From NCBI GenBank assembly GCA_015491735.1, contig WFVH01000085.1, positions 1-46,374 on the forward strand: a stretch of 46,374 nt of DNA, written 5' to 3'. The notes under the pieces were generated by a model that made no database searches, was not told the DNA's origin, and saw nothing but the letters and a program-made list of their open reading frames with translations. Position 1 is the first letter of the stretch, and every line of letters begins with the position of its first letter. The DNA is from Gammaproteobacteria bacterium (GTDB taxonomy: Bacteria; Pseudomonadota; Gammaproteobacteria; Thiohalospirales; Thiohalospiraceae). Shown here piece after piece: positions 37,276-45,255 of this stretch. The position numbers and the translations under genes were made by a program.

Positions 37276-37551
37276 CTAATGATCAGCGTGTTTCCCTTTA
37301 TGCAACTCCACCAGTTGTTCGAGCAGATTTTCGATATTCGCCAACCGCTCCTCCACCGTCTGCATATGTTTTTTTTTCATCTCCTTCATCGGCTTCATCT
37401 TGGACATCATTTCGCACTTTTCCTTGTCATGCACCGGCTTGGAAGAGTCCATCTCCATGGGTGTTTCTTTAGCAGGTATCTCGTCTCCGGCAAGCACCGG
37501 GCTGCTGATGAGTACTGCACAGACGGCGGTTAACAAGCTGGTTTTTTTCAT
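37276..37551 (-). CDS. small exported protein with C-terminal coiled coil
   Basis: 91 residues from the ATG at 37551 (GGAG nine bases upstream). A Sec signal peptide (MKKTSLLTAVCAVLISSPVLA) is followed by an acidic, Met/Lys-rich segment with a single internal Cys (KEKCEMMSKMKPMKEMKKK) and a C-terminal coiled coil VEERLANIENLLEQLVELHKG. The Met- and His-rich composition (ends KHADH) hints at copper or other metal binding in the periplasm, but this is inference. No family recognised. Confidence 0.75.
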   Translation of the reverse strand: MKKTSLLTAVCAVLISSPVLAGDEIPAKETPMEMDSSKPVHDKEKCEMMSKMKPMKEMKKKHMQTVEERLANIENLLEQLVELHKGKHADH

Positions 37552-37715
37552 GTCTCTTTTCTCCATCGAGTAGTAAAAAATTCATGATCCGGAAAGCTGC
37601 AACAAACGGCTCCGGCAGAGTCTGCATCAGGCTGCTCCGCGGGTTCGCGGCGGCTCTCCATCCGCTCTCGCTCAATAGACTACAGCCAGCGATATCCGTG
37701 TCAACAGGGTGGATG

Positions 37716-40860: not shown

Positions 40861-43425
40861 ATGACCCCGGCCAAATCACGACACACCCCGCTGATGCAGC
40901 AGTACCTGAGCCTCAAGGCAGAGCATCCTGACATTCTGATGTTCTTCCGCATGGGTGATTTCTACGAGCTTTTCTACGACGATGCGCGCAAGGCGGCGCA
41001 ACTGCTGGGTATCAGCCTTACCAGCCGGGGAAAATCGGCCGGAGAACCCATTCCGATGGCCGGTGTCCCCTGTCATGCGGTGGATGGCTATCTGGCCAAG
41101 CTGGTCAAACTGGGCGAGCCGGTAGCCATCTGCGAACAGATTGGCGACCCGGCAACCAGCAAGGGGCCTGTCGAGCGCCGTGTAACCCGCATCATCACGC
41201 CTGGCACCGTCACCGAGGAGGCGCTGCTGGAAGAGCGCCGCGACAACCTTGTGGCAGCGCTTTTTCAGCAAAAGGAACGATTCGGCCTGGCATGGATGGA
41301 TCTTGCCAGCGGTCGCTTCCACGTCATGGAGCTGGAGGGCAAGGAGGCGCTTGCCGGCGAGCTGGAGCGGCTACGCCCCGCGGAGTTGATTGTCAGCGAA
41401 GAAGCGCCTACCCCGGTGTATGAACAGAACAGCTTGCGGCGCCTGCCGCCCTGGCACTTCGAATTTGACAGCGCCACGCGCATGCTGTGTGGCCAGTTTG
41501 GCACCCGGGATCTCGCCGGGTTCGGCTGCGACCCCTTTCCCCTGGCGGTAGCAGCCGCCGGTGGTCTGCTGCACTATGTCCGCAATACACAGCGCAACGG
41601 CCTGCCTCACATCTGCTCCCTGCGTGTGGAACAGCGGGAGGAAAGCCTCATCCTCGATGCGGTCAGCCGCCGCAACCTGGAGCTGGAGACCAGCATCTCC
41701 GGGCATCCGGAACAGACCCTGGCAGGCGTTTTCGACCGCACCGCTACCGCCATGGGCAGCCGCCAGCTCCGACGCTGGCTGAACCGGCCGTTACGTAACC
41801 AGCAGACCATCGGCCAACGCCACCGGGCGGTGGCCGAGCTGCTGGCGGAGCATAACTTCGAGCTGCTGGACAGCCAGTTGCGCGGCATCGGCGACGTAGA
41901 GCGCATCCTGACCCGGATTGCCCTGCGCTCTGCCCGTCCCGGCGATCTGATCCATCTGCGCACCGCCTTGGGCCGGCTGCCGGAGCTGCAGAGAACGCTG
42001 GCTGGCAAAAACAGTCCGCTGCTGCGGGAACTGCGTCACCGCATCAGCGAATTCCCGGAGATACATGAACAACTGCAGCGGGCCGTGGTGGATGCACCAC
42101 CGCTGCTGATCCGTGACGGTGGCGTCATTGCACAGGGCTATGATGACGAACTCGATCAGCTGCGCGCCCTGCAGCAGAACGCCAGTCAATATCTCATCGA
42201 ACTGGAGCAGCGGGAGAGAGAACAGACAGGCATCGCCAACCTCAAGATAAGCTACAACCGGATCCATGGCTACTACATCGAGGTCAGCCGCGCCCAGAGC
42301 GCCCGGATCCCTGATCGCTACCAGCGCCGCCAGACGCTCAAGGGGGCTGAGCGTTATATCACGCCGGAGCTGAAAGATTTCGAGGACAAGATACTGAGCG
42401 CCAACGAGCGGGCTCTGGCGCGTGAAAAAAGATTGTACGAACAGCTACTGGATGACATCGCCACCCGGTTGAACGAGTTGCAGCAGTGCGCCGCCGCCCT
42501 GGCCGAACTGGATGCCCTGAACAACCTGGCCGAACGCGCCGCCACCCTTGATCTGGCCGCTCCCGAATTCACCACCCGGCCCGAAATCAGAATCACCGCC
42601 GGCCGCCATCCCGTCGTGGAGCAGCTCCAGGACACCCCGTTCGTCCCCAACGATCTGCACATGGATCAAAGCCGCCGCATGCTGCTGATAACCGGCCCCA
42701 ACATGGGCGGCAAATCCACTTACATGCGCCAGACCGCCCTCATCGTGTTGCTGGCATGCATGGGCAGTTTCGTTCCGGCGCAACGGGCCGTCATCGGCCC
42801 CATCGACCGCATTTTTACCCGCATCGGCGCCTCAGACGAGCTGGCGAGCGGCCGCTCCACCTTCATGGTGGAGATGACCGAAACCGCCAACATCCTGCAC
42901 AACGCCACCCCCAACAGCCTGGTGTTGATGGACGAAATCGGGCGTGGCACCAGCACCTTCGACGGCCTCTCCCTTGCCTGGGCATGCGCCCGGCAGCTAG
43001 CAAAGGAGATTGGCGCCTTTACCCTGTTCGCAACCCACTATTTCGAACTCACTCAGCTCCCCCAACAGGTGGAAGGGGTGGCCAACGTTCACCTTGACGC
43101 CATTGAACACGATGAACATATCGTATTCATGCACTCCGTCAAGGAGGGTTCCGCCAGCCAGAGCTACGGCTTGCAGGTAGCCGCCCTGGCGGGTGTTCCC
43201 CCACAAGTCATCCAGCAGGCCAAGGACAAGCTGAAACAGCTCGAACGGCGCGGTAAAACCAACCCGTCGGCGAACACGGCGCAACCGGCTGAAAACAGAG
43301 TCCAGCCCCCCCGGCAATCGGTTGTCGAACAGGCGCTGTCGCAACTGGAGCTGGATGATCTCTCACCTAGAGAGGCGTTGGAAAAACTGTATCAACTGCA
43401 GGCGTTGCTAAAGAAGCACGGCTGA
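40861..43425 (+). CDS. mutS: DNA mismatch repair protein MutS
   Basis: 854 residues. It recognises mismatches with the Phe-x-Glu motif in [14 protein letters not shown] (about residue 36), and has the ATPase motifs [13 protein letters not shown] (Walker A, near 620), [16 protein letters not shown] and FATHYFELT. The C-terminal 50 residues form the dimerisation tail. I use the ATG at 40861 rather than the TTG at 40825. Length is standard. It acts with MutL, which is not in the window. Confidence 0.98.
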
Positions 43426-43509: not shown

Positions 43510-43730
43510 CGAGTTGAAATCGCGTTCGTTTTCAAATAACGAAATTGCAGTATATAATAGACACGTTCTATTTCGGCAAACCATTCAGCCGGATCATAAC
43601 AATAATCAAGCTGGAACAGCCTGTTTGGGCAGCGACCACCTGAACACCCCCTGGAATCTGTCAGGCAAGGCGAGAGTTGTGAGATGACAGTCAATAACTG
43701 ACCACTGTTCAACGTGGAAAGGGTGCGCGT

Positions 43731-43756: not shown

Positions 43757-43838
43757 TCGATATTTTGAACGTGCCGAAACCGGCAAGGGATTCCGGTTTC
43801 TCCCGAAGCATTCCGGGCAAAAAAAGGAGCACCTACCT

Positions 43839-45089
43839 ATGAGATATCCATCTTTTTTCCCTCCGTTCTCTCTGGTGATCGGGTTGGTCATTGCCGTATT
43901 GTGGATACCCGATCCGGCAAATGCTGTTCCGGCGTTTGCCAGACAGAAGGCAAAACCCTGCACTTCGTGTCATTTTCAGCACTTTCCGGCATTGAACAAG
44001 TTTGGCCGTGAATTCCGTGCAGAAGGATACGTTATGCTCGATGAAGATGAGCAAGGAGTCATTCGGGAGGACGGTCTTTCCCTGCCCATGACGCTCAACA
44101 CCGCTGTCATAGCCAAGCTGCGTTATCAGAAGACCAACGGGAACAGCAAGGAAGGCAGCGATTATGGCGCTATCGAGTGGCCGGACGAAGCCGCACTGAT
44201 GGTCGGTGGCCGCCTGGCTGAAAACGCGGGATTTCTCATGGAGTTGGGGCTGGTCGATGCAAACTCGTTTTTGTCGACGAAGATCCATTTCAATATAACC
44301 AAGGTGAATGATACCCGGTTAAGCATTATCCCTTTTTCCACCGACGGACTGGGGGTTGCATACGGATTCGAATTGTTGAATACCGGCGCCCAGCGCTCCC
44401 AACGGCCGATTGAAGCCCGCAGCAGTTACAGCGCCGCACAGGCCCTGGGTCTGGGCAGCGGGGAGGCCACCGGCATTGCGCTGGTTGCCTCCAATGACCA
44501 GTTTTTCCTCAACTATACCCCCTGGGTTCCCGGTTGGGGGGAGAGTAACACCACCGTCAAACCCTCCGGCCTGTCCCACTATCTGCGCGCCGCCTACACA
44601 CCGGCCATCGGTACTGTAGAAGCCGGATTTGGCGTACAGTACTGGTACGGAGAGGCCACAACGGCATTGAATGACGAATCGGGAGATACCCTGGATATCG
44701 AAACCAGCGGCTGGGTGATTGATGCCCAGGCCCAGTCGGATCTCTATTCCATGCCGCTCGGAGTATACGCCAGCTACGGCAGCTGTCAGGGAAGCGCTAC
44801 GCATTTTGCCGACAACTGCCAAAATAACGATGACGCCACCGCGTTTGGCCTGTTGGCGCAACTGGGTTTCGTTCCAAACGTGGCCGCCGTCTATGCTGCT
44901 TTCCGCTCCATGGATATCGGCACTGAAGAAGATGCGGATTTCGATGTATGGGTATTGGGGCTGAACTACATGTACACACCCAATGTTCGTTTCGAGCTGT
45001 TCTACGAACGGGAGAGTGGTTCCGGCGTTGATGCCCGCCCCTCGGAACAGGATGATCGGCTGCTCTTTCAGTTGTTTGCAGGTTTTTGA
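43839..45089 (+). CDS. Cyc2-like fused monohaem cytochrome / outer-membrane porin
   Basis: 416 residues. A signal peptide (residues 1-29, ending PANA) precedes AVPAFARQ, a single haem site CTSCH at 41-45, then HFPALNKFGREFRAEGY. The remaining 340 residues look like a beta-barrel: alternating aromatic and polar strands and a terminal Phe (LFQLFAGF). One N-terminal haem followed by a barrel is the architecture of Cyc2, the outer-membrane iron oxidase, and the PALN.FGR.F..EGY segment resembles it. ATG at 43839 with GGAG nine bases upstream. Single-gene unit. Iron oxidation is only inferred; similar proteins occur in bacteria not known to oxidise iron. Confidence 0.75.
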   Translation: MRYPSFFPPFSLVIGLVIAVLWIPDPANAVPAFARQKAKPCTSCHFQHFPALNKFGREFRAEGYVMLDEDEQGVIREDGLSLPMTLNTAVIAKLRYQKTNGNSKEGSDYGAIEWPDEAALMVGGRLAENAGFLMELGLVDANSFLSTKIHFNITKVNDTRLSIIPFSTDGLGVAYGFELLNTGAQRSQRPIEARSSYSAAQALGLGSGEATGIALVASNDQFFLNYTPWVPGWGESNTTVKPSGLSHYLRAAYTPAIGTVEAGFGVQYWYGEATTALNDESGDTLDIETSGWVIDAQAQSDLYSMPLGVYASYGSCQGSATHFADNCQNNDDATAFGLLAQLGFVPNVAAVYAAFRSMDIGTEEDADFDVWVLGLNYMYTPNVRFELFYERESGSGVDARPSEQDDRLLFQLFAGF

Positions 45090-45164: not shown

Positions 45165-45255
45165 GGAGAGGTGTCCGAGTGGTTGAAGGAGCACGCCTGG
45201 AAAGTGTGTATACGGTAACACCGTATCGAGGGTTCGAATCCCTCCCTCTCCGCCA
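45165..45255 (+). tRNA. tRNA-Ser (anticodon GGA)
   Basis: A 91-base class II tRNA with acceptor GGAGAGG/CCTCTCC, discriminator G and encoded CCA at 45253-45255. The anticodon stem CACGC/GTGTG encloses CTGGAAA, giving GGA for UCC/UCU codons. A long variable arm (TACGGTAACACCGTA) is present. Downstream lies a gene remnant and a Fic gene, a typical place for accessory DNA. Confidence 0.96.

Follow-up and report, generated by a model that had tools for sequence, protein, structure and literature searches.

Cyc2-type proteins are used by iron-oxidising bacteria to draw electrons from dissolved extracellular iron, and their gene serves as the principal marker of neutrophilic iron oxidation. The window, that is the whole stretch of 46,374 nucleotides analysed here, carries near its 3′ end a gene that a sequence-only reading had taken for a Cyc2-like cytochrome-porin. 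This raises the question of whether a true Cyc2 is encoded and from which donor it would take electrons. The three features behind that proposal, a single CTSCH haem site, its AFARQ context and a barrel ending in Phe, are all present (residues 41–45; C-terminal ...QLFAGF), and both family and architecture are supported by the signature, the barrel model and the phylogeny. The gene probably encodes a Cluster-1-type Cyc2, most likely oxidising extracellular Fe(II) at neutral pH.

The open reading frame is intact, with 416 codons and an ATG start (Table 1). It is present in a single copy in its genome, and its GC content (55%, against 54% for the contig) is not unusual. The gene sits between mutS, which ends at position 43425 and is separated from it by 413 nt, and a tRNA-Ser gene. 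Three promoter-like sites were found, against 1.1 expected in shuffles, and no riboswitch or other Rfam family was detected upstream of the gene. Just after the tRNA-Ser, a frame cut by the contig end (45778–46374, + strand) looks by eye like a Fic/DUF4172-type protein. Elsewhere in the window, positions 37276–37566 (− strand) encode a small protein that looks secreted, is rich in Met, Lys and His (MKPMKEMKKKHMQ...) and possibly binds metal.

Table 1. Features of the cyc2-like locus (positions in the window)
Feature	Position	Strand	Basis or remark
cyc2-like gene, fused monohaem cytochrome-porin, 416 aa	43839..45089	+	ORF reading, full-length homology, structure model
Possible sigma-70-like promoter between mutS and cyc2 (413-nt gap)	43529..43558	+	10/12 consensus bases; weak evidence
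Shine-Dalgarno AGGAG, 9 nt 5′ of the cyc2 ATG	43825..43829	+	Direct sequence reading
Predicted signal peptide, residues 1–29, ANA end then VPAFARQ	43839..43925	+	Sequence reading
N-terminal cytochrome mini-domain, residues 30–64, Cyc2 signature	43926..44030	+	Keffer 2021 motif
Single CTSCH haem c attachment site, residues 41–45	43959..43973	+	Sequence; C41, C44, H45 invariant in 42 relatives
Predicted 16-strand outer-membrane beta-barrel, residues 87–415, C-terminal Phe	44097..45083	+	AlphaFold2 model, OprO/OprP matches
tRNA-Ser (GGA), directly 3′ of the cyc2-like gene	45165..45255	+	Window; dihaem cytochrome gene in this place in most near relatives

According to the published criteria (Keffer et al. 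2021, PMC8406198), a Cyc2 has a signal peptide, a single CXXCH, the AXPXFAR[Q/K][T/Y] motif and a PXL placed four residues after the CXXCH. It should further reach at least 365 residues (the FeGenie rule) and possess a porin of 16 strands that is similar to OprO and OprP. The window protein begins with a hydrophobic stretch running up to ANA, read by eye from its sequence alone. In the AlphaFold2 model this region forms a helix at residues 9–21 and is of low confidence at residues 22–29. Behind the predicted signal peptide come VPAFARQKAKPCTSCHFQHFPALNKFGREFRAEGY, a short linker and the barrel, whose last residues are ...LFQLFAGF; the total length is 416 residues. Exactly one CxxCH occurs, the CTSCH near the N-terminus, in the context AVPAFARQ / PALNKFGREFRAEGY, and the signature as a whole follows the pattern AVPAFARQ...CxxCH...PAL..FGR.F...GY. 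The PXL spacing is kept (CTSCH-FQHF-PAL). The sole deviation is the last position of AVPAFARQK, where K replaces the T/Y of the motif and the T of most relatives. Since 23 of the 143 aligned relatives depart from the motif at this point as well (Sideroxyarcus of the Gallionellaceae, for instance, has Q), the position represents a consensus rather than an absolute requirement. Residues R35, Q36, C41, C44 and H45 are invariant in 42 aligned sequences.

The fold was modeled with AlphaFold2 from an alignment of 42 sequences, comprising the window protein and fetched relatives. The model (mean pLDDT 88.3, pTM 0.85) shows 16 strands within residues 87–415, the stretches 284–288 and 291–302 being counted as one strand. 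The barrel of about 330 residues comes close to the 340 residues of the initial estimate. Two helices (31–37 and 54–61) are predicted in the mini-domain. The top Foldseek matches were porin-type barrels only, and the best two solved structures in VIA-align were OprO (Z 23.8) and OprP (Z 23.6), with OprB and OmpC-type porins near-tied within 1–3 Z. For the Mariprofundus Cyc2, too, OprO and OprP have been reported as structural relatives (PMC8406198). A shared fold gives by itself no proof of function, and a profile search of the PDB sequences with the window protein yielded no match.

Searches of species genomes revealed 422 stretches encoding relatives. Among the best 80 of these 422, the nearest belong to 'Candidatus Thiodiazotropha' (62–65% identical over the full length), and the endosymbionts of the tubeworms Lamellibrachia and Escarpia are also near. 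The farther relatives among the same 80 come from Thiocystis violacea, Thiobacillus denitrificans, Hydrogenovibrio SC-1, Sideroxyarcus and other Gallionellales, Nitrospirota, 'Deltaproteobacteria' and Nitrospinota. Whole-genome sampling gave full-length matches (E < 1e-50) in 12 of 369 genomes of Gammaproteobacteria, and others in many members of one family (f207) of another class of the same phylum, which from its size and pattern is probably Zetaproteobacteria (Mariprofundaceae). The barrel alone scored 264–302 bits against home-made HMMs of the Gallionellaceae type (E 4e-76) and of the delta/Nitrospirota type (E 2e-87), while shuffled barrels scored below zero bits. These scores, together with the full-length identities, indicate a homology far beyond chance. 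Sequences with a CHTVFPEL... signature match the window protein via the N-terminus only, the barrel alone reaching 8.7 bits.

The phylogenetic position was evaluated with two trees, a quick one (135 rows) and a careful one (45 rows). Each placed the window protein within the clade of Thiodiazotropha and tubeworm-symbiont sequences, with an SH-aLRT of 99 in the quick tree and bootstrap/SH-aLRT values of 99/87 (100/98 for a wider set) in the careful one. The Gallionellaceae, Nitrospirota, delta and f207 sequences fell outside this clade, as did the Cyc2 subtype of the congeners described below. In both trees the window protein forms the longest branch of its clade (0.46–0.53, against at most about 0.2). 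The Cyc2 of lucinid symbionts has been placed in a data set equivalent to Cluster 1, in a study that also states that iron oxidation was not demonstrated in these symbionts (PMC12442345), and Cyc2-like genes of tubeworm endosymbionts have been noted (PMC5566968). Taken with our trees, which contain named Sideroxyarcus, Gallionellales and Thiodiazotropha sequences, this published placement points to Cluster 1 for the window protein, as do the home-made HMMs. It is a somewhat divergent Cyc2 of this kind, new in its host lineage and belonging to a family already known. Neither a fold lacking a barrel nor affiliation with a family of other known function was found.

Three observations concern other sequences collected during the searches. 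The Cyc2 encoded at locus L030 of one genome assigned to the window's class (G301) is nearly identical to the f207 proteins; with 590 contigs and 7% contamination in this bin, L030 may be a stray contig. Another genome carries two tandem cyc2 copies of equal score (G551:C314, 4814–6010 and 7040–8236). A further family of monohaem, barrel-sized proteins has the motif FARQY..SCxACHxAFPxLNxxGxxF....LPxW and is Cyc2-like at the N-terminus only, with one member in the window's own organism family and one elsewhere in the class (L013 / G008:C3 52050–52316, and L012).

We then considered the genes that could serve as electron partners. Of 12 gammaproteobacterial relatives examined, 10 have a dihaem cytochrome c gene directly 3′ of cyc2 on the same strand (for example L057 6334–6996, L062 6267–6995 and L071 6284–6967). 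This arrangement was seen in Thiodiazotropha, tubeworm symbionts, Thiocystis and other Gammaproteobacteria, and the proteins form one family, about 35–91% identical among themselves. This cytochrome is a likely physiological partner of Cyc2. A different, c4-like dihaem cytochrome adjoins cyc2 in Sideroxyarcus and Methylotenera. Neither type adjoins the cyc2-like gene in the window. Elsewhere in the window's genome we found a c4-like cytochrome (C38) that is 39–44% identical to those of Sideroxyarcus and Methylotenera, and two dihaem proteins (C80 and C83) that are 25–31% identical to the symbiont partner; all three could act as electron carriers. The same genome encodes a cbb3 oxidase (ccoO and ccoP over the NCBIfam cut-offs), with two matches to the RuBisCO large subunit and 19 matches to the Cytochrom_C domain. 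No match to DsrA of the reverse-Dsr pathway exceeded the cut-off in this genome, two weak hits lying far below it, and no match to the MtrB/PioB porin (PF11854) was detected. A 530-aa haem protein on contig C19 was considered as NirS; NCBIfam gave no support for this identity, and denitrification is therefore not claimed.

The sequence-only reading had also pointed to a multihaem cytochrome in the window as making extracellular electron uptake conceivable. Such a protein is indeed encoded by a frame running off the contig start (3–818, + strand), with at least seven CxxCH, a doubled CXXCH motif and a match to the MtrC/MtrF II–IV domain (47 bits, cut-off 30). However, it lies about 43 kb from the cyc2-like gene, and the two are tied by nothing beyond their common contig. 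A genome search for closely spaced CxxCH pairs returned one site, on another contig.

The distribution of the gene among close relatives is patchy. Congeners G001, G004 and G007 (with fragments in G003) possess another subtype of Cyc2, with a BLASTP identity of only about 30%, although the identity of MutS is 76–84% where a congener gave a full-length match. Another congener, G006, retains a broken remnant of the window-type cyc2 (C111; L216 4022–4324) that covers the last ~107 residues with internal stops and shows 75.8% nucleotide identity over 248 bp. The nearest intact relative, 'Ca. Thiodiazotropha endolucinida' (G358), shares only its class with the window's genome. In relatives readable up to 5 kb after mutS, neither cyc2 nor tRNA-Ser was found there. 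Since the congeners carry either another subtype or, in one case, a decayed remnant only, transfer and loss of the gene is the simplest reading of its history. The window protein nevertheless keeps 41 of the 42 columns that are at least 90% conserved in 41 relatives, which argues for constraint over decay despite the longest branch.

By analogy with characterised members of the family, the window protein would reside in the outer membrane with haem attached, and electron uptake through it is plausible. The 16-strand barrel would admit Fe2+ into its pore, and the small N-terminal c-type haem domain, plugging the periplasmic mouth, would accept one electron per Fe(II). This domain would then hand the electron to soluble c-type cytochromes of the periplasm, whose genes lie elsewhere in the genome. 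These in turn would feed the cbb3 oxidase, and reverse electron flow would provide NADH for CO2 fixation. Fe(II) as the donor, the direction in which electrons flow and the carriers involved are all extrapolated here from the family.

Several explanations compete with Fe(II) oxidation by a functional Cyc2. The protein could be an ordinary general-diffusion or phosphate-type porin with an incidental CxxCH, since its best structural matches are plain porins. The sub-threshold match to Porin_4 (17.7 bits, cut-off 27) points the same way; no Pfam or NCBIfam model matched the protein above its cut-off. Yet the haem site and its context, with the five invariant residues, are more strongly conserved than any other part of the family, and each of the 144 family sequences collected, for whose selection a motif with CxxCH was used, has exactly one CxxCH. 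We give this explanation almost no credence. A recently acquired gene that is being lost in the genus and no longer functions would fit the remnant in G006, the other subtype in further congeners, the long branch and the missing adjacent partner. The intact frame with its Shine-Dalgarno sequence, the conserved columns and the confident barrel model argue against such a loss of function, which we regard as very improbable.

The choice of donor is a closer matter. The protein could be a true Cyc2 by descent that takes electrons from iron sulfide minerals, cathodes or partner cells, or that serves in Fe(II) detoxification. Its nearest relatives are sulfur-oxidising symbionts without known iron oxidation, and the genome encodes the cytochrome with the MtrC/MtrF-like domain; conversely, the MtrB/PioB porin was not found there, and those members of the wider family that have been studied biochemically act on Fe(II) (PMC8406198). 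On balance, we consider these other roles unlikely. A more specific proposal is that a stand-alone, fast-diverged Cyc2, deprived of its dihaem partner, is a conduit for electron uptake from donors that are not dissolved Fe(II), perhaps with the multihaem cytochrome, in an autotroph lacking detectable DsrA or MtrB/PioB; this is speculative and rather improbable. Oxidation of Fe(II) is favoured by the agreement with the Cyc2 criteria, the clade placement, the barrel HMM matches and the RuBisCO, cbb3 and cytochrome genes of the host. It is weakened by the missing adjacent dihaem gene, the longest branch and the K at the last signature position.

The presence of a clear Cyc2 in a further uncultured, autotrophic gammaproteobacterial lineage adds to the lineages that may oxidise iron. 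That a single genus combines several subtypes (the window type, a distant type and a broken remnant) is another case of the 'low clade fidelity' reported for Cyc2, and the conserved pairing of cyc2 with a dihaem cytochrome gene in the symbiont clade suggests a candidate periplasmic carrier.

Among known systems, the Cyc2 of Thiodiazotropha and of the Lamellibrachia and Escarpia endosymbionts have the full-length homology, clade, signature and barrel in common with the window protein; they differ by the dihaem gene directly 3′ of cyc2, the shorter branches and the T in place of K. The Cluster 1 proteins of Mariprofundus PV-1 and the Gallionellaceae likewise combine a single haem and the signature with a 16-strand, OprO/OprP-like barrel, the likeness to the PV-1 protein being drawn from its published features. 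The Gallionellaceae-type proteins are, however, about 35–38% identical to the window protein, and the window's host is not known to oxidise iron. Acidithiobacillus ferrooxidans Cyc2 and Leptospirillum Cyt572 (Clusters 2 and 3) share the N-terminal haem signature and the barrel plan; if the CHTVFPEL... sequences represent these clusters, as we infer, the resemblance is restricted to the N-terminus. The MtrAB, MtoAB and PioAB systems perform a comparable job by moving electrons across the outer membrane with a separate 26-strand porin and a decahaem cytochrome (PMC8406198), whereas in Cyc2, the type encoded in this genome without an MtrB/PioB match, the haem domain and the porin are fused into one protein.
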